Shown here: positions 1,685 to 57,290 of the stretch, in pieces
Layout of the letters: every line of letters starts with the position of its first letter
Numbering within the stretch: the stretch's first letter is position 1
Origin: Terriglobia bacterium
Lineage (GTDB): Bacteria; Acidobacteriota; Vicinamibacteria; Vicinamibacterales; CAVVIG01
Direction of reading: 5' to 3'
Length of the DNA stretch: 64,000 bases
NCBI GenBank assembly: GCA_020073005.1
Contig: JAIQFX010000002.1
Span: 62,001-126,000, forward strand
Made by a program: the position numbers and the translations under genes
The notes under the pieces: model-generated
Database searches by the model: none
What the model was told of the DNA's origin: nothing
What the model saw: the letters and a program-made list of their open reading frames with translations, nothing else

Positions 1685-1716
1685 AAAAAGGGCCGGACGC
1701 TGACGCGCCCGGCCCT
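1685..1716 (-). terminator. Rho-independent terminator downstream of nrdJ
   Basis: On the minus strand AGGGCCGG and CCGGCCCT form a perfect 8-bp stem (1709-1716 with 1689-1696) around a 12-nt loop, followed at once by a run of T. It lies 42 nt past the nrdJ stop, just beyond the heptamer array. Confidence 0.75.
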
Positions 1717-1757
1717 GACTAACGACTAAAGACCAACGACTAACGACTAACGACTAC
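1716..1757. repeat. Heptamer array, unit CGACTAA, six copies
   Basis: Six 7-nt units (CGACTAA with variants TGACTAA, AGACCAA and CGACTAC) fill exactly the 42 nt between the nrdJ stop codon and its terminator. Read in the nrdJ direction the unit is TTAGTCG. The same unit family recurs at 9440-9570 and 57249-57290. Confidence 0.9.
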
Positions 1758-4721
1758 TTAGGCGCAACCCGACGTATTCCCGCAGTTCACGCACTTGTAG
1801 CACGCGCCGCTGCGGATCATGATCGCGCCGCAGGTCGAGCACGGCGGCGCGTCTTCCTGATTCTGAATCGTCGAATGCGGGTTCGCGTCGGTCGGCCTGA
1901 CCGCCGAAGCTGCCTGCTCAGATGCGGCAGCGGAGGCGGACGCAGGGCCGGCCGCGGAGGCGGTGGGCGTCAGCGTGTGCCCGTGCCCGTGCTCGTCCAG
2001 CTCCCGCCCGTTCACGCCGGCGTGGAACTGCGCCTCGGGCGACATGAACTTCGACGCCATCCACCGGAAGATGTAGTCGACGATCGACTTCGCGAACCGG
2101 ATCTCCGGATTGCGCGTCATCCCCGACGGCTCGAAGCGGACGTGGCTGAACTTGTCGACCAGCGCCTGCAGCGGCACGCCGTACTGCAGCGCGTACGAAA
2201 TCGCCTGCGCGAACGCGTCGGCGAAGCCCGAGATCGTCGAGCCTTCCTTCGCCATCACCAGGAAGATCTCGCCCGGCTGGCCGTCCTCGAACAACCCGAC
2301 GGTGATGTAGCCCTCGTGCCCGGCGATGTCGAACTTGTGCGTGATCGCCTGCCGCTCGTCCGGCAGCTTGCGGCGGACCGGACGCGTGACGAGCTGCGCC
2401 GCCGCCTGCGCCAGCTCGGCCGCCGTCTTGTCCTTCGACGTGTTGAGCGGCTGCGTGCGCTTGCTGCCGTCGCGGTAGATCGAGATCGCCTTCGCGCCCA
2501 GCTTCCACGACTGGATGTAGGCCTGCATGATCTCGTCGACGGTCGCTTCCTTCGGCACGTTGACCGTCTTCGAGATCGCGCCCGAGATGAACGGCTGCGT
2601 GGCGCCCATCATCTTGATGTGGCCCATGTAGTGGATCGACCGCTGCCCCTTCGCCGCCTTGAACGCGCAGTCGAAGACCGGCAGGTGCGAATCCTTGAGG
2701 CCCGGCGCGCCTTCGATCGTCTCGTTCTTGTCGATGTAGTCGACGATGGCGTCGACCTGCGGCTGCGAGTAGCCGAGCTTGCGGAGCGCCATCGGCACGG
2801 TCTGATTGACGATCTTCATCAGCCCGCCGCCGACGAGCTTCTTGTACTTGACGAGCGCGATGTCCGGCTCGACGCCGGTCGTGTCGCAGTCCATCATGAA
2901 GCCGATCGTGCCGGTCGGCGCCAGCACGGTCGCCTGCGCGTTCCGGTAGCCGAACTCCTCGCCCAGCTCCACCGCATCGTCCCACGAGGACTTCGCGGTC
3001 TGGTAGAGGTCCGGCGGCACGTTGCGGCTGTTGACGTCGCGCATCGCGTCGCGGTGCTTGCGCATCACGCGCAGGAACGGGTCGCGGTTTTTCTCGTAGC
3101 CGGAGAACGGACCGCCGTGATCGCGCGCGATCCGCGCCGACTGCGCGTACGCTTCGCCGGTCATCAGCGCCGTCAGCGCGGCGGCGTAGTCGCGGCCGCC
3201 GTCGCTGTCGTACGGCAGGCCGCGCGACATCAGCAGCGCGCCCAGGTTCGCGTAGCCGAGGCCGAGCGGCCGGTACGCGTGGCTGTTGTCGCCGATCGCC
3301 TTGCTCGGGTAGCTCGCGTTGTCGACGATGATTTCCTGCGCAGTAATAAGGGTACGAATCGCCGCCTTGTAGGAGATGGCGTCGAACTCAACGTTGTTGG
3401 GATCATCACCAACAACTTTGACGAACTTCATCAGGTTGATCGACGCCAGGTTGCACGCCGAGTCGTTCAGGAACATGTACTCCGAGCACGGGTTGCTCGC
3501 GTGGATGCGATCCGTGTTCGGGCACGTGTGCCACTCGTTGATCGTCGTGTCGAACTGCATGCCCGGATCGCCGCAGACGTGCGTGCCTTCGGCGATGAGG
3601 TGCATCAGGTCGCGCGCCTTGTAGGTGTCCATGACCTCGCCGGTCCTGACCGCCTTGGTCTCCCACTCGGCATCGTCGAGGACGGCGCGCATGAAGTCGT
3701 CGGGCACGCGGACGCTGTTGTTGGAATTCTGGAAGAACACCGACGAGTAGGCCGGGCCGGTGAACGAGCCGTCGTAGCCGGCGTCGATCAGCGCCCAGGC
3801 CTTCCGCTCTTCATCGACCTTGCAGTTGATGAAGTCGACGATGTCCGGGTGCTCGACGTTGAGGATCACCATCTTGGCCGCGCGGCGCGTCTTGCCGCCG
3901 GACTTGATCACGCCGGCGAACGCGTCGTAGCCCTTCATGAACGACACCGGGCCCGACGCCGTGCCGCCGCCCGCGAGCAGCTCGCGGCTCGAGCGGATCG
4001 GCGAGAGGTTCGTGCCCGTGCCCGAACCAAATTTGAAAAGCATGCCCTCGGTCCGGGCCAGCGTCAGGATCGAATCCATCGTGTCCTGGACCGAGTTGAT
4101 GAAGCAGGCCGAGCACTGCGGCGCTTTCTCGAAGCCGCAGTTGAACCACACCGGGCTGTTGAAGGCGGCTTTCTGGTAGACGAGGATGTGCTTGAGATCG
4201 TCGCTGAACGCCTGCAGGTCCTCGTCGCTCGCGAAGTACTTCTGCGCGCGGCCCCACTCGGTGATCGTGTTGACGACGCGGCCGATGAGCTGCTTGACGC
4301 TGCGCTCGCGCTCCGGCGTGCCGATCTGTCCGCGGAAATATTTCGAGACGACGATGTTCGTCGCCTGCTGCGACCAGGACTTCGGGATCTCGACGTCGCG
4401 CTGCTCGAAGACGAGCTCGCCGCGCTCGTTGCCGATCAACGCGGCGCGCAGCTCCCACTCGATCTCGTCGAACGGATCGACACCGGCTTCGGTGAAGAAG
4501 CGAGGAAACGTCAGGCCGACGACGGCGGGGGCGGTGCGGACTTTACCGCGGGGCTTGTCTTTTTCCAGCAGGGCATCCACCGGCGTCGGGGCGCCTGTGC
4601 CCCCACTGCTTTCTACCGTCTGTTGGCCGCCGCTCGCGGCCTGGTAGGCAGCGCGATCCTTCATGTTCCCCGCTCCGTTGTCCGCCGGGAGTTCGCCCCC
4701 CGGATCAAATGGCGTTCGCAT
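1758..4721 (-). CDS. nrdJ: Adenosylcobalamin-dependent (class II) ribonucleoside-diphosphate reductase
   Basis: Makes deoxyribonucleotides for DNA synthesis, using coenzyme B12 as the radical generator, in the cytoplasm. The 987-residue protein carries the ten-stranded barrel signatures of the family: N-terminal FPRFFTEAGVDPFDEIEWEL, GSGTGTNLSPIRSSRE, the active-site loop NPCSE at about residues 408-412, and a C-terminal zinc-binding tail with C-x2-C pairs (CSTCGA, CYKCVNC) in the last 25 residues. The cysteine-rich tail is typical of the long NrdJ form that needs no separate small subunit. The gene stands alone, with its own promoter (4860-4888), a NrdR-like operator (4897-4912) and a terminator (1685-1716). 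No cobalamin riboswitch is seen in the roughly 140-nt leader. A proline/alanine-rich stretch precedes the zinc tail. Confidence 0.97.
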   Translation of the reverse strand: MRTPFDPGGELPADNGAGNMKDRAAYQAASGGQQTVESSGGTGAPTPVDALLEKDKPRGKVRTAPAVVGLTFPRFFTEAGVDPFDEIEWELRAALIGNERGELVFEQRDVEIPKSWSQQATNIVVSKYFRGQIGTPERERSVKQLIGRVVNTITEWGRAQKYFASDEDLQAFSDDLKHILVYQKAAFNSPVWFNCGFEKAPQCSACFINSVQDTMDSILTLARTEGMLFKFGSGTGTNLSPIRSSRELLAGGGTASGPVSFMKGYDAFAGVIKSGGKTRRAAKMVILNVEHPDIVDFINCKVDEERKAWALIDAGYDGSFTGPAYSSVFFQNSNNSVRVPDDFMRAVLDDAEWETKAVRTGEVMDTYKARDLMHLIAEGTHVCGDPGMQFDTTINEWHTCPNTDRIHASNPCSEYMFLNDSACNLASINLMKFVKVVGDDPNNVEFDAISYKAAIRTLITAQEIIVDNASYPSKAIGDNSHAYRPLGLGYANLGALLMSRGLPYDSDGGRDYAAALTALMTGEAYAQSARIARDHGGPFSGYEKNRDPFLRVMRKHRDAMRDVNSRNVPPDLYQTAKSSWDDAVELGEEFGYRNAQATVLAPTGTIGFMMDCDTTGVEPDIALVKYKKLVGGGLMKIVNQTVPMALRKLGYSQPQVDAIVDYIDKNETIEGAPGLKDSHLPVFDCAFKAAKGQRSIHYMGHIKMMGATQPFISGAISKTVNVPKEATVDEIMQAYIQSWKLGAKAISIYRDGSKRTQPLNTSKDKTAAELAQAAAQLVTRPVRRKLPDERQAITHKFDIAGHEGYITVGLFEDGQPGEIFLVMAKEGSTISGFADAFAQAISYALQYGVPLQALVDKFSHVRFEPSGMTRNPEIRFAKSIVDYIFRWMASKFMSPEAQFHAGVNGRELDEHGHGHTLTPTASAAGPASASAAASEQAASAVRPTDANPHSTIQNQEDAPPCSTCGAIMIRSGACYKCVNCGNTSGCA

Positions 4722-7043: not shown

Positions 7044-7170
7044 GGTGCTGGGTGCCGAGTGCTGCGGTGCTGGGTGCTGCGGTGCTGAGTGCTGTGTGCT
7101 GCGTGCTCCGCACCAGGCACCCGGCGCCCGGCACGGCACCAAGCACTCCGCACCCGGCACCAGGCACCCG
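7044..7170. repeat. Inverted heptamer array between regulator and kinase genes
   Basis: The left arm (7044-7108) is built of GGTGCTG-type 7-mers; the right arm (7109-7170) of GCACCAG and GCACCCG 7-mers, the rotated complement. Together they can fold into a hairpin with arms of about 60 nt. The array begins right after the TGA of the response regulator (7172-7174) and ends 5 nt before the kinase start, so it fills the whole gap inside this operon. Confidence 0.9.
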
Positions 7171-7171
7171 A

Positions 7172-8569
<1,398 letters not shown>

Positions 8570-8602
8570 TATGGCTTATGGCTGAGGGCTAAGGGCTGAG
8601 GG
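8570..8602. repeat. Heptamer array, unit GAGGGCT/TATGGCT, at the regulator start codon
   Basis: Four 7-nt units and a partial one (TATGGCT twice, then GAGGGCT and AAGGGCT) touch the start codon of the minus-strand regulator. They are complementary to the CAGCCAT array at 8704-8760, so the two arrays form inverted arms around a spacer of about 100 bp. Confidence 0.85.
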
Positions 8603-8703
8603 AATGGTCGATGGCGGAAGAGAGATGGCGTTTGAGGTACCCTGAACGCCGTGAGCGACAACCGCGGCGTTCCACCGCTGGACGATCAACCACGTAACCA
8701 CCC

Positions 8704-8760
8704 GCCATCCAGCCATCAGCCATCCCTCAGCCATCAGCCATCAGCCATCAGCCATCGCAT
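8704..8760. repeat. Heptamer array, unit AGCCATC, at the CPBP gene start
   Basis: Mostly AGCCATC units, with one 4-nt interruption, end 2 nt before the GTG start of the CPBP protease gene. They are inverted relative to the array at 8570-8602. Confidence 0.9.
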
Positions 8761-8761
8761 C

Positions 8762-9442
8762 GTGGCGATCATCGAGGTTCTCCTCTGCTCGGACTTCCCG
8801 ACGCAGCTCGCGATTGGCGCCACGTTCACCGCGTTCGGCTACACGCCCTTCGTCTCTCCCGGCCAGCTCCGTCTCAGCTACGTCGTCTGGCTGTCGGTCG
8901 CCGACTCGGCCGCGCTCATCGCGCTCGTGCTGCTGTTCCTGTACGCGCACGGTGAGCGGCCGCGCGACGTCCTGCTGGGCCGGCGGCCGGTCGTCCAGGA
9001 GTTCCTGCTCGGCGTGCCGCTGATCCTCGTGGCGCTCGCGCTCGGCGGCGGCATCCTGCTCGCGACGCGGCATTTCGCGCCGTGGCTGCGCACGGTGGAA
9101 CGCAATCCGCTGCAGGAGCTGCTGCGCTCGCCGCGCGAGGCGTGGCTGTTCGCGTTCGTCGTCTTCGTCGCCGGCGGCCTGCGCGAGGAGATCCAGCGCG
9201 CGTTCCTGCTGCATCGTTTCGACGTCTGGCTCGGCGGCGGGACCGCGGGTCTGCTGGTGACCAGCGTCGCGTTCGGCGCGGGACATCTGCTGCAGGGCGC
9301 GGACGCGGCGATCGCGACGGGGCTCCTGGGCGCGTTCTGGGGCCTGGTGTACCTGCGCCGCCGATCGTGCCTCGCGCCGCTGGTGAGCCATGCGGGATTT
9401 GACTTGATGCAGATCGTTCAGTACATGGCAGTGGGCAAATAG
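8762..9442 (+). CDS. CPBP-family intramembrane glutamic endopeptidase
   Basis: Polytopic membrane protease of the Abi/CAAX prenyl endopeptidase-like family, 226 residues. The family motifs are in order: EExxR as EEIQR (about residue 140), a membrane His in GHLLQG (about 173) and SHAGFD (about 207), between several hydrophobic helices. In bacteria such proteins process membrane proteins or exported peptides; the substrate here is unknown. I prefer the GTG at 8762 because the in-frame extension upstream (possible GTG at 8651) is mostly the Ser/His/Pro translation of the heptamer array. The TAG stop is itself the first bases of another heptamer array. Confidence 0.85.
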   Translation: MAIIEVLLCSDFPTQLAIGATFTAFGYTPFVSPGQLRLSYVVWLSVADSAALIALVLLFLYAHGERPRDVLLGRRPVVQEFLLGVPLILVALALGGGILLATRHFAPWLRTVERNPLQELLRSPREAWLFAFVVFVAGGLREEIQRAFLLHRFDVWLGGGTAGLLVTSVAFGAGHLLQGADAAIATGLLGAFWGLVYLRRRSCLAPLVSHAGFDLMQIVQYMAVGK

Positions 9443-9570
9443 TCGTTCGTCGTTGGTCGTTGGTCATTGGTCGTTCGTCGTTAGTCGGCGTTGCGACTCT
9501 TCGACAAACGACCAATGACGAACGACCAACGACTATCGACCAACGACTAACGACTAATGACCAACGACTA
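9440..9570. repeat. Inverted heptamer array between convergent genes
   Basis: The left arm (9440-9488) has seven units of TGGTCGT/TAGTCGT type; the right arm (9504-9570) has nine units of ACCAACG/ACTAACG type, its complement, separated by about 15 nt. The stop codons of both flanking convergent genes (TAG at 9440-9442, and TAG on the minus strand at 9568-9570) are part of the outermost units. It can form a hairpin acting on either transcript. Confidence 0.92.
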
Positions 9571-10110
9571 CCGCCCAGGCAAATACAGATCGAGAACATT
9601 TCCCCGCCGTCTCAATCCCGCCACCCAGTCGTCGATCAGCGCCTGTCGTCGCTCGCCGGCCGCGGTGAATCGCTGATCCAGATACGCGGCGATGCGCAGG
9701 TTCTGGCGCACGGTCTCGCGCAGGTGCTGCGCGTCGATGCCGGATCGCGCGACGGCGGCGTCGAACTCGGCCTGCGATGCGAACCGCGCCCGCACCCGCG
9801 CCACGTCGCGGTCCACCGCCTCGGTGGTCGGCTCCGGCGGACCGTAGCGGTCCGTCTCGGCGAGCATCAACTCGCGATCGATCAGCTTCGACAGAATCGC
9901 GCGCATCGGATCGGACGCGCCGTCCGCCGACTGGAACCCGAGATCGCGCGCGCCGACGACGTCGCTCAACGTGATCGGCTGCCCCGCCACGACGGCAAGC
10001 ACGCGCTCGATGAGCTCGGCGTGAGCAGCGCGCGCAGCACCCGTCAGGAGCGCGAGGGCGATCAGCGCGCGCGCAATCTGAATTCTGAATTCTGAATTCT
10101 GAATTCGCAT
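9568..10110 (-). CDS. SurA N-terminal-like periplasmic chaperone, without PPIase domain
   Basis: A 180-residue exported protein. After a signal peptide (cleavage near AARAAHA) it reads RVLAVVAGQPITLSDV, the hallmark opening of SurA/PpiD chaperone domains, then helices including LIDRELMLAE and a C-terminal helix ending in LPGR. No parvulin-type PPIase domain follows, so it is much shorter than SurA. It lies 2 nt downstream of the BamA-like gene in an apparent operon with the TamB-like gene, which fits a role with outer-membrane proteins. I chose the ATG at 10108-10110; the codons right after it (RIQNSEFRIQ) are encoded by a CTGAATT heptamer array, so the signal peptide N-region is repeat-derived. 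Confidence 0.8.
   Translation of the reverse strand: MRIQNSEFRIQIARALIALALLTGAARAAHAELIERVLAVVAGQPITLSDVVGARDLGFQSADGASDPMRAILSKLIDRELMLAETDRYGPPEPTTEAVDRDVARVRARFASQAEFDAAVARSGIDAQHLRETVRQNLRIAAYLDQRFTAAGERRQALIDDWVAGLRRRGNVLDLYLPGR
10078..10105. repeat. Heptamer array, unit CTGAATT, four copies at a start codon
   Basis: Four perfect CTGAATT units (10078-10105) lie just inside the start codon of the SurA-like gene. The AT-rich unit, containing overlapping EcoRI-type GAATTC sites, contrasts sharply with the GC-rich surroundings. Confidence 0.92.
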
Positions 10111-25813: not shown

Positions 25814-26467
25814 TTACGCCTTTACCGCCTGCGACTTCTCCCAGTCCTTCAGGAACTTCTCGAGCCCGATGTTCGTGAGCGGGTGGTTGAACATCTGATC
25901 GATCACCGCGGGCGGGCACGTCGCGACGTCGGCGCCCATGCGCGCCGATTCGACGACGTGAATCGGGTGACGGCAGCTGGCAACGAGGACTTCCGTCTTG
26001 AAGTCGTAGTTGTCGTAGATGTCCACGATCTCGCGAATCAATCCCATGCCGTTGGTCGCGATGTCGTCGAGACGGCCGACGAACGGGCTGATGTAGCTCG
26101 CGCCGGCCTTCGCCGCCAGCAGCGCCTGCGCGGCCGAGAAGCAGAGCGTCACGTTGACGCGAATGCCCTCGCCCGAGAGCGCCTTGCACGCCTTGATGCC
26201 CTCGCGCGTCAGCGGCACTTTGACCACCATGTGCGCGTCGATCTTCGCGACGTCGTGGCCCTGCTGCAGCATGCCGGCGAAGTCGGTCGCCGTCACCTCG
26301 CCGCTGACCGGCCCCTTGACGATCTGGCAAATCCGCTTGAGGTTGTCGCGATAGTCGCCCGGTTCCTTCGCGAGCAGCGAGGGATTCGTCGTCACGCCGT
26401 CGATGATGCCCAGCGCGGCCAGCGTCTCGATGTCTTTGATGTTGCCGGAATCGATGAAGAGCTTCAT
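25814..26467 (-). CDS. fsa: Transaldolase-like fructose-6-phosphate aldolase
   Basis: Small class I aldolase of the TalC/Fsa group, acting on fructose 6-phosphate or as transaldolase in the pentose phosphate pathway. The 217-residue product starts [20 protein letters not shown], has the GVTTNPSLL loop, and Schiff-base Lys83 in HMVVKVPLT, all characteristic. The start ATG overlaps the stop of the fumarylacetoacetase-family gene (ATGA), and the stop abuts the carboxyltransferase start. Transaldolase versus F6P aldolase activity cannot be settled from sequence alone. Confidence 0.92.
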
Positions 26468-27252
26468 AAGATCACTCCCACGTATTCGTTCATGACGGGA
26501 TTGCTCAACTCGCCCACGCCTTCCACTTTCACCGTCACCGTGTCGCCGCTCACGAGCGGCCCGATGCCTTCGGGCGTGCCCGTGGAGATGATGTCGCCCG
26601 GCTCGAGCGTCATCACGAACGAGATGTACTCGACGAGATAGTCGATCGGGAAAATCAGGTGCCGCGTGTTCGACGCCTGGCGCCGCTGGCCGTTGACCCA
26701 CGCCTGGACGTCGCGCGGCTCGCCGTTGAGTCCGGTGACGATGGACGGCCCGACGGGCGCGAACGTGTCGAAGCCCTTGCACCGCGTGAACTGCGACTCC
26801 GTGTTCTGCATCTCGCGCGCCGTGACGTCGTTGAGGCACGTCAGGCCGAGCACGTAATCCCACGCGCGCGCGCGCGGCACGCGGTGCGCGCGGCGGCCGA
26901 TGACGAGCGCCAGCTCGGCCTCGTGATCGACGCGCCCGACGCCGGGCGGCAGCCGGATCGGATCGCCGGGGCCGATCACGGCGGTCGGCGGCTTGAGGAA
27001 CAGCAGCGGCTCGGACGGCAGTGTCATGCCGGTCTCCGCCGCGTGATCTTTGTAGTTGAGCCCGACGCAGATGATCTTCGACGGCGTCACGGGGGCGAGC
27101 ACGCGCAGCCCTGTCGCGTTCAGGCCGCCGGGAATCGCCGCGCCGAGCGTGTGCGTCCCGAAAATGTCCCCGCTGACCGGATACAGCGCGCCTGCGCGCT
27201 CGACGGCGTGCTGCACGGCGCCCTGATAGCTGATGCGGAAGAGGCGATCCAT
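26464..27252 (-). CDS. Fumarylacetoacetate hydrolase-family protein
   Basis: Metal-dependent C-C bond hydrolase, isomerase or decarboxylase of the FAH fold, 262 residues. It shows [15 protein letters not shown], the acidic metal site [12 protein letters not shown], and [15 protein letters not shown]. The family includes acylpyruvases, oxaloacetate decarboxylases and enzymes of aromatic degradation; no neighbouring aromatic pathway genes are present to narrow the role. It is coupled by overlap to the aldolase gene. Confidence 0.9.
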
Positions 27253-47628: not shown

Positions 47629-47684
47629 CTTCTCACTTCTCACTTCTCACTTCTCGGTTCCCGGTTCCGACTTCTCTTTTCACC
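47629..47684. repeat. Heptamer array, unit CTTCTCA, eight copies between dprA and topA
   Basis: Exactly eight 7-nt units (CTTCTCA and variants such as CTTCTCG, GTTCCCG, GTTCCGA) fill the gap from the dprA stop codon (47685-47687) to 12 nt before the topA ATG. The first three units are identical. Confidence 0.93.
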
Positions 47685-50579: not shown

Positions 50580-50590
50580 GATTCATTGCA

Positions 50591-54300: not shown

Positions 54301-54331
54301 GCAATCCGCAACCCGCCATCCGCAATCCGCA
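54301..54331. repeat. Heptamer array, unit GCAATCC, between lysA and tmk
   Basis: Four 7-nt units (GCAATCC, GCAACCC, GCCATCC, GCAATCC) plus a partial unit run up to the lysA stop codon (TAA, 54332-54334 on the minus strand). Read in the lysA sense the unit is GGATTGC. Confidence 0.88.
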
Positions 54332-56880: not shown

Positions 56881-57255
56881 TCAGCGCGGCCTGGCGAACA
56901 CGCCCAGGCTGGTTCCCACCGCGCGCCCAGCGGCGTTGTCCGACGAGCGATTGACCAGCGCGCGCTCTCGATCGTGAACCGGCGAGCCAGCCCTCTGTGT
57001 CAGTGGAAGGAAACGGCAGAAAGAAATGCACGTTGACCGCCAGCTGCGCGGAGGCGACAGCGTGAAGCGCAGACTGGCCGCCGTCAGATCGATTTGCACG
57101 ATGTGCATGTGCACGTCGCGCGGCGCGGTTTCGGTCCGATCGATGTAGGTGATGCCGACGTAGGGCTGTGTAACACGCTGCTCGGCCTCCACGGTGGCGC
57201 AGAGACCGAGCAGCGCGAGCGATGCAAGCAGTCGGGTGAAGAGATTCGCGACCAA
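56881..57255 (-). pseudogene. Internally deleted phosphodiester glycosidase-family gene
   Basis: The N-terminal frame reads a signal peptide (LFTRLLASLALLGLCATVEA) and QPYVGITYIDRTETAPRDVH followed by HIVQIDLTAASLRFTLSPP, which opens NAGPA-type phosphodiester glycosidase proteins. The next piece, AQLAVNVHFFLPFPSTDTEG, lies in another frame. The last piece, in the first frame again, is ALVNRSSDNAAGRAVGTSLG then VFARPR, the usual C-terminus of that family. About two thirds of the normal 350-400 residues is missing from the middle. The ends survive, as in the remnants at 839-1674. The presumed start lies in the heptamer array at 57249-57290. Confidence 0.7.
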
Positions 57256-57290
57256 CGACTAACGACCAACGACCAACGACCAACGACTAC
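57249..57290. repeat. Heptamer array, unit CGACCAA, six copies
   Basis: Six 7-nt units (CGACCAA, CGACTAA, CGACTAC), 42 nt, the same length and unit family as the array after nrdJ. The outermost unit contains the TAG stop of the gene at 57287. Confidence 0.93.

Follow-up and report, generated by a model that had tools for sequence, protein, structure and literature searches.

The genome studied here carries several hundred short arrays of 7-nt repeats, packed into the spaces just 3' of genes. We consider that they are probably heptanucleotide simple-sequence arrays which come from 7-nt slippage and strand-switching and are tolerated beside stop codons, rather than a targeted element or a terminator. 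The window (the whole stretch of DNA that was analysed, 64,000 nt) corresponds to C119:62001-126000 of a draft genome of 5.86 Mb in 179 contigs, with a G+C content of about 67.5% in the sampled stretches. The original prediction concerned three places of this window at which arrays of one unit family (GTCGTTR) meet stop codons, and the corresponding features are the following:

1689..1716, minus strand: canonical intrinsic terminator of nrdJ, downstream of the array
1717..1756, minus strand: GTCGTTA/GTCGTTG array of about 6 units, directly after the nrdJ stop
1758..1760, minus strand: nrdJ stop TAA, followed in gene sense by G-TAG-TCGTTA
9440..9442, plus strand: stop TAG of the CPBP (Rce1-like) protease gene, running into the first array unit
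9442..9487, plus strand: left arm, GTCGTTG array
9502..9568, minus strand: right arm, inverted GTCGTTG array (CGACCAA on the plus strand)
9568..9570, minus strand: stop TAG of the SurA-like gene, running into the first unit of the right arm
57249..57287, minus strand: GTCGTTG array
57287..57289, minus strand: stop TAG of gene 57287, inside the first unit (TAA-TAG in the relative)

Direct reading and TRF agreed that 1717-1756, 9442-9487 with 9502-9568, and 57249-57287 are tandem GTCGTTG/GTCGTTA (that is, CGACCAA/CGACTAA) heptamers, with the stop codons placed as had been claimed. In gene sense, the 3' ends read AAA-TAG-TCGTT for the CPBP gene (TAG 9440-9442), CGG-TAG-TCGTT for the SurA-like gene (9568-9570, minus), TCG-TAG-TCGTT for gene 57287 (57287-57289, minus) and TAA-G-TAGTCGTT for nrdJ (TAA 1758-1760, minus). 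The CPBP gene encodes a Rce1-like CAAX protease (E 6e-15) and nrdJ a class II ribonucleotide reductase (E 6e-138); the SurA-like gene has a SurA_N_3 match, but below the Pfam cut-off, and gene 57287 gave no Pfam hit. Genome-wide, a 20-nt GTCGTTR pattern allowing up to 1 mismatch is matched 275 times and its reversed control 0 times, so that these arrays are not due to chance. Two elements of the prediction had to be revised. The region 9440-9570, described as a single array, is an inverted pair of arrays forming a hairpin between convergent genes, and the length of exactly six units is not special, most arrays having 4-5 units, which rules out six as a preferred length. Close to this pair, a TCTGAAT array (window 10077-10106) falls within the region called as the start of the SurA-like gene; as the relative has a 134-nt gap there, the gene probably begins downstream of this array.

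The census of arrays covered 1.23 Mb of this genome, sampled by stretches, the second batch of which came partly from contigs picked for GTCGTTR matches. Genes were called with a home-made codon model (1068 genes, 92.5% coding in the 1.23 Mb), and a few arrays scored as coding may therefore be intergenic. The 7-nt tandem unit is the dominant period among short tandem repeats: in 852 kb, we counted 34 strict arrays of period 7, 6 of period 11 and 0-2 for each of periods 4-6, 8-10, 12 and 13, periods 14, 21 and 28 being multiples of 7. The 1.23 Mb contain 120 arrays, 100 of which are mostly intergenic, and the density per Mb is 1089 in intergenic and 18 in coding sequence (about 60-fold). The corresponding densities are 927 and 4 in G041, an order-mate from another family. 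The arrays fall into dozens of unit families (GTCGTTR, AAAACTG, AAGGCAG/AAGAAGG, ACAGCTG, ACCAGCC, AATCCGC, AATTCAG, AACCCTG, ACTCCCG and others), many of them linked by one- and two-base steps, often inside one array; along an array of genome G009, for example, the units are graded as TTCTGAA-TTCTAAG-TTCTAAC-GTCTAAC.

We infer from these features, and from those described below, both the process and the part played by selection in the location of the arrays. Replication slippage by 7 nt would add, remove and homogenise units, a switch to the opposite strand would copy one arm into an inverted arm, and arrays would survive where they are least harmful, directly after stop codons and away from promoters. 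Slippage with strand-switching is supported by the dominance of period 7, the intergenic density, the graded units, the in-place unit differences, the presence or absence of arrays at orthologous junctions and the in-register arms.

Considering the gaps of at least 25 nt in this genome, arrays are present in 20/74 convergent, 54/377 co-directional and 6/142 divergent ones. Per kb, the arrays number 2.65, 1.23 and 0.30, respectively; convergent gaps show no array excess in G041. Where a co-directional gap has 20 nt or more to spare, the array starts within 6 nt of the upstream stop in 19 cases, where 4.4 are expected by random placement, and in 10 cases versus 2.1 in G041. The predicted association of arrays with gene 3' ends is thus found in both genomes. 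Array ends within 6 nt of the next start number 9 and 4, respectively. The proposal of a seeding at, or a replacement of, the region right after the stop codon is borne out in so far as the post-stop sequence differs in place between relatives, but targeting as its mechanism finds no support: in a genome that is 92.5% coding, selection alone would leave the post-stop bases as the permissive place. As arrays would grow up to and over the stop codon, they often supply the stop themselves, and the codon is entirely covered in 16 of the 57 stop-adjacent arrays (about a quarter). Stop-adjacent arrays are also purine-rich in gene sense (43/59, p 6e-4), a strand bias that plain slippage does not predict and that counts against it.

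The stops beside arrays comprise 25 TAG, 15 TAA and 17 TGA, against 323, 170 and 559 overall in the sample of this genome (p 0.04 for TAG; p 3e-4 for TAG and TAA together). The expected enrichment of TAG holds for sense GTCGTTR arrays, with a TAG stop in 10/13 versus 323/1052 overall (p 7e-4), and not for the other families, where the embedded stop varies with the unit (TGA in AAAACTG, TAA in AAGAAGT); antisense GTCGTTR arrays have a TAA stop in 3/3. TAG is therefore special for GTCGTTR only and stop identity otherwise tracks the unit. The overlap with stops is likewise not peculiar to one unit family, since dozens of heptamer families behave alike. When the stop is partly covered by the array, the same stop recurs in the rest of the array in 19/20 cases versus 7.9 expected, a test which is partly circular because an open frame entering an array must end at one of its stops. 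The bias in stop codons is absent beside the arrays of G041, so that this claim holds for the genome studied here and fails for G041. Because a period of 7 nt shifts the frame at each unit, any unit that contains a stop ends all three frames within 21 nt. One could suppose from this that selection maintains arrays behind genes as stop barriers independent of frame, in line with the GTCGTTA units that place TAG in every frame and with a stop identity that follows the unit. We give this reading very little credence, because 29/54 stop-adjacent arrays have a consensus unit free of stops on both strands and stops are not significantly more frequent in sense than in antisense (11 vs 4, p 0.12).

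The RNA of the region 9431-9580, between the convergent CPBP and SurA-like genes, is predicted to fold into one long hairpin (-80.3 kcal/mol, z -9.5). When two arrays share a gap, they are inverted in 14/16 pairs in this genome and 1/6 in G041, and 38/120 versus 7/47 arrays have an inverted partner. The two arms in the convergent gap at C11:34580 are 92% identical along 51 nt, a stretch that continues past both stops into both genes, and they score 39 where registers shifted by 7 nt reach at most 18; at C106:48690, 31/31 bases match, unit change included. The window's own pair (9442-9568) is less decisive, the in-register score being 30 vs 27 in the next-best register. If one arm served as template for the other, this agreement in register is what one would expect. 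This genome and most of the order (genomes G000-G059) give no match to SbcD (TIGR00619); the nuclease is present in G041, G029, G009 and G023, and 13/14 control genomes match. Absence of SbcD could allow hairpins to be retained. Because of the confounding effect of kinship, the contrast between 38/120 and 7/47 in inverted partners is only suggestive in this respect, and G023 has SbcD and yet contains at least one inverted pair (C78).

These hairpins might instead be functional RNA structures at mRNA 3' ends (bidirectional terminators or stabilisers), the hairpin being selected and the unit not. Convergent gaps are indeed the richest per kb, pairs in one gap are mostly inverted, the fold of 9431-9580 has a strongly negative z, and the inverted pair is kept in relatives while the unit differs. 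We nevertheless hold this explanation to be unlikely: beyond its array, nrdJ has a terminator of its own, the arrays show no association with U-tract terminators, only 38/120 have an inverted partner, many orthologous junctions have no array, the convergent excess is missing from G041 and arrays turn over between relatives. The arrays cannot be identified with intrinsic terminators either, as they lack the G+C-rich stem followed by a T run.

The turnover was described by comparing the window with a contig of a same-genus relative (G001:C61), which gave 51 orthologs with a median identity of 89% and 27 paired gaps of at least 30 nt. Arrays occur in both genomes in 3 of these gaps, in the own genome only in 2 and in the relative only in 4 (unpolarised); the detector missed imperfect GTGCGGA/GTGCC-type repeats of the relative at 9443, so that one of the own-only gaps in fact has different repeats in both. 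Other sites of the window are listed below:

7044..7170, no strand assigned: GGTGCTG / GCACCCG inverted heptamer pair; the relative has a GTGGCTA / CCAGCCA hairpin
8569..8756, no strand assigned: GGCTGAG / CCATCAG inverted heptamer arrays in a divergent gap
47629..47668, minus strand: CTTCTCA array, unit family conserved in the same-genus relative
54301..54331, no strand assigned: GCAATCC array of the own genome only; the relative has a different hairpin element

To judge from the sequences compared, gene 57287 is the clearest case of differing units at one site. GTCGTTG in the own genome faces GTGGCTG in the same-genus relative over the same interval, with matching flanks and in register (unpolarised). 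The first unit is common to both and the remaining ones differ: the own sequence reads GAAGTC-GTAGTCGTTGGTCGTTGG..., that of the relative GAAGTCCTAATAGTCGTTGGTGGCTGGTGGCTG..., and both then enter an identical GCGAATCT. The CPBP/SurA gap contains a GGTGCTG-type hairpin in the same genus and, in other relatives, a decayed GTCGTTG hairpin, a TTGCTGG array, an AATTAAG hairpin, a CACGGAGG-type hairpin or nothing; one relative has a graded array, from GACGTTA to GAATTCA. A dedicated copying by 7-nt steps at gene ends could rewrite the unit while keeping place, length and hairpin, and would be favoured by the loss of the hairpin-cleaving SbcCD; we regard such a process as quite improbable. The proposed comparison of gene ends was run for nrdJ, whose protein has the same last residue in nearly all relatives examined. 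The array lies there between the stop and the canonical terminator and so leaves the protein end unaltered; many relatives without the array have similar stem-loops after nrdJ.

Arrays can also be present in one genome at junctions where they are lacking in the other. At 25814 and 26468 the own genome has genes that abut or overlap by ATGA, where the relative has arrays or hairpins in between; at 50580 the own genes abut or overlap and the relative has an array between them. Together with the presence of one family at many loci, this could be taken to indicate mobile or dispersed elements (REP/RAYT-like) inserted at gene ends, which we judge very unlikely. The loci share neither non-array flanks nor fixed ends, any likeness of their flanks being array or loop sequence only, the unit number is variable and the units are graded, and Y1 transposases occur in G029, whose sample has no arrays, and are absent from the array-rich G013. 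A REP/RAYT element would be a fixed palindrome with conserved ends that correlates with a Y1 transposase, and neither was found here. Separately, the operon junction at 26468 (window 26464-26467, loci L330-L347) varies across the family: some members have an ATGA overlap there, others hairpins of about 100 nt made of heptamers or of nonamers (ACACAAAGG-type), and the last residues of the upstream protein change along with the hairpins. A second class of hairpins, with ends GTAGGGGC...GCCCCTAC, was observed in G001 (L140-L143) in the gaps matching window 25814 and 54283; in the match to 25814, its TAG is the stop of the upstream gene.

Outside this genome, database matches gave at least 110 stretches with four-unit GTCGTTR arrays, in Acidobacteria, Cyanobacteria, Bacteroidales, Gallionella, Omnitrophota, Gammaproteobacteria, Chloroflexi, Meiothermus and others, surrounded by other arrays of period 7 (n=55), 8 (n=6) and 9 (n=11). 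The recurrence of GTCGTTR in many phyla counts against slippage alone. Within the own phylum, the pattern was found in 6/199 evenly drawn genomes and is therefore patchy. Array abundance differs even within one genus (0 arrays in G029 and six in G041, 100 kb each), which counts against the explanation that we prefer. As an observation apart, the recurrence of GTCGTTR in many unrelated phyla (loci L180-L259) is unexplained by simple descent or random slippage.

Among simple repeats with long units, heptamers are the most common in many bacteria. Cyanobacterial STRR heptamers form several families per genome and are intergenic; the arrays described here resemble them in both respects, in a different phylum. 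Calothrix heptamers are cited by Rehm et al. 2015 (PMC4692102), who studied the G-rich GGGAATC / GGGGAYT heptameric repeats of Xanthomonas and Nostoc. As in the arrays presented here, these have 7-nt units, are intergenic and depleted in coding sequence and divergent gaps, form inverted pairs, and vary in length and sequence between relatives; they lie within 50 nt of stops or overlap them, on the sense strand, and stop proximity and overlap are also seen here. On period, intergenic location, depletion in divergent gaps, stop proximity and inverted pairs, our arrays belong to the heptameric intergenic repeats. However, PMC4692102 deals with one G-rich unit type that forms quadruplexes and peaks at four units, whereas here dozens of interchangeable units, most without G-tracts, replace each other in place. 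GTCGTTR has no G-tract and no single unit dominates the many families, so the arrays are not of that G-quadruplex type. The TAACTGA arrays of Beggiatoaceae (MacGregor 2015, PMC4679880) are also heptamer arrays between genes, with stops in all three frames, but they consist of a single unit and lie mostly just upstream of start codons; the other units and the stop-adjacent placement found here set our arrays apart from this class. REP and GTAG- or CGTC-tagged palindromes (PMC3733652) are intergenic and hairpin-capable as well, but are fixed palindromes of 20-40 nt and not period-7 arrays. Mrazek et al. 2007, as cited in PMC4679880 and PMC4692102, found heptamers to be the most abundant class in most genomes and, according to PMC4679880, proposed that polymerase slippage favours 7 nt; as presented there, that work is a survey without gene-end anatomy or orthologous comparison.

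Heptameric intergenic repeats are thus already known from other bacteria (Xanthomonas/Nostoc, cyanobacterial STRRs). We found no account of such arrays in Acidobacteria in the open-access literature, and what is new here is the clade, the many interchangeable units in one genome, the in-place unit replacement and the arm-to-arm copying. The heptamer-repeat literature cited here has no explanation for the number seven and the gene-end location. In a genome like this one the process can be tested directly, since many units coexist and one site can read differently in a close relative. The annotated stop codons and last residues of some proteins are written by repeats. Finally, two minor observations concern the units themselves: hairpins of about 9-nt units (CACGGAGGA) occupy co-directional gaps at C29:41139 and C122:65209, a minor period beside 7, and the array at the gene end at C11:93704 is made of AGGGTTT, the plant telomere repeat, presumably by coincidence.
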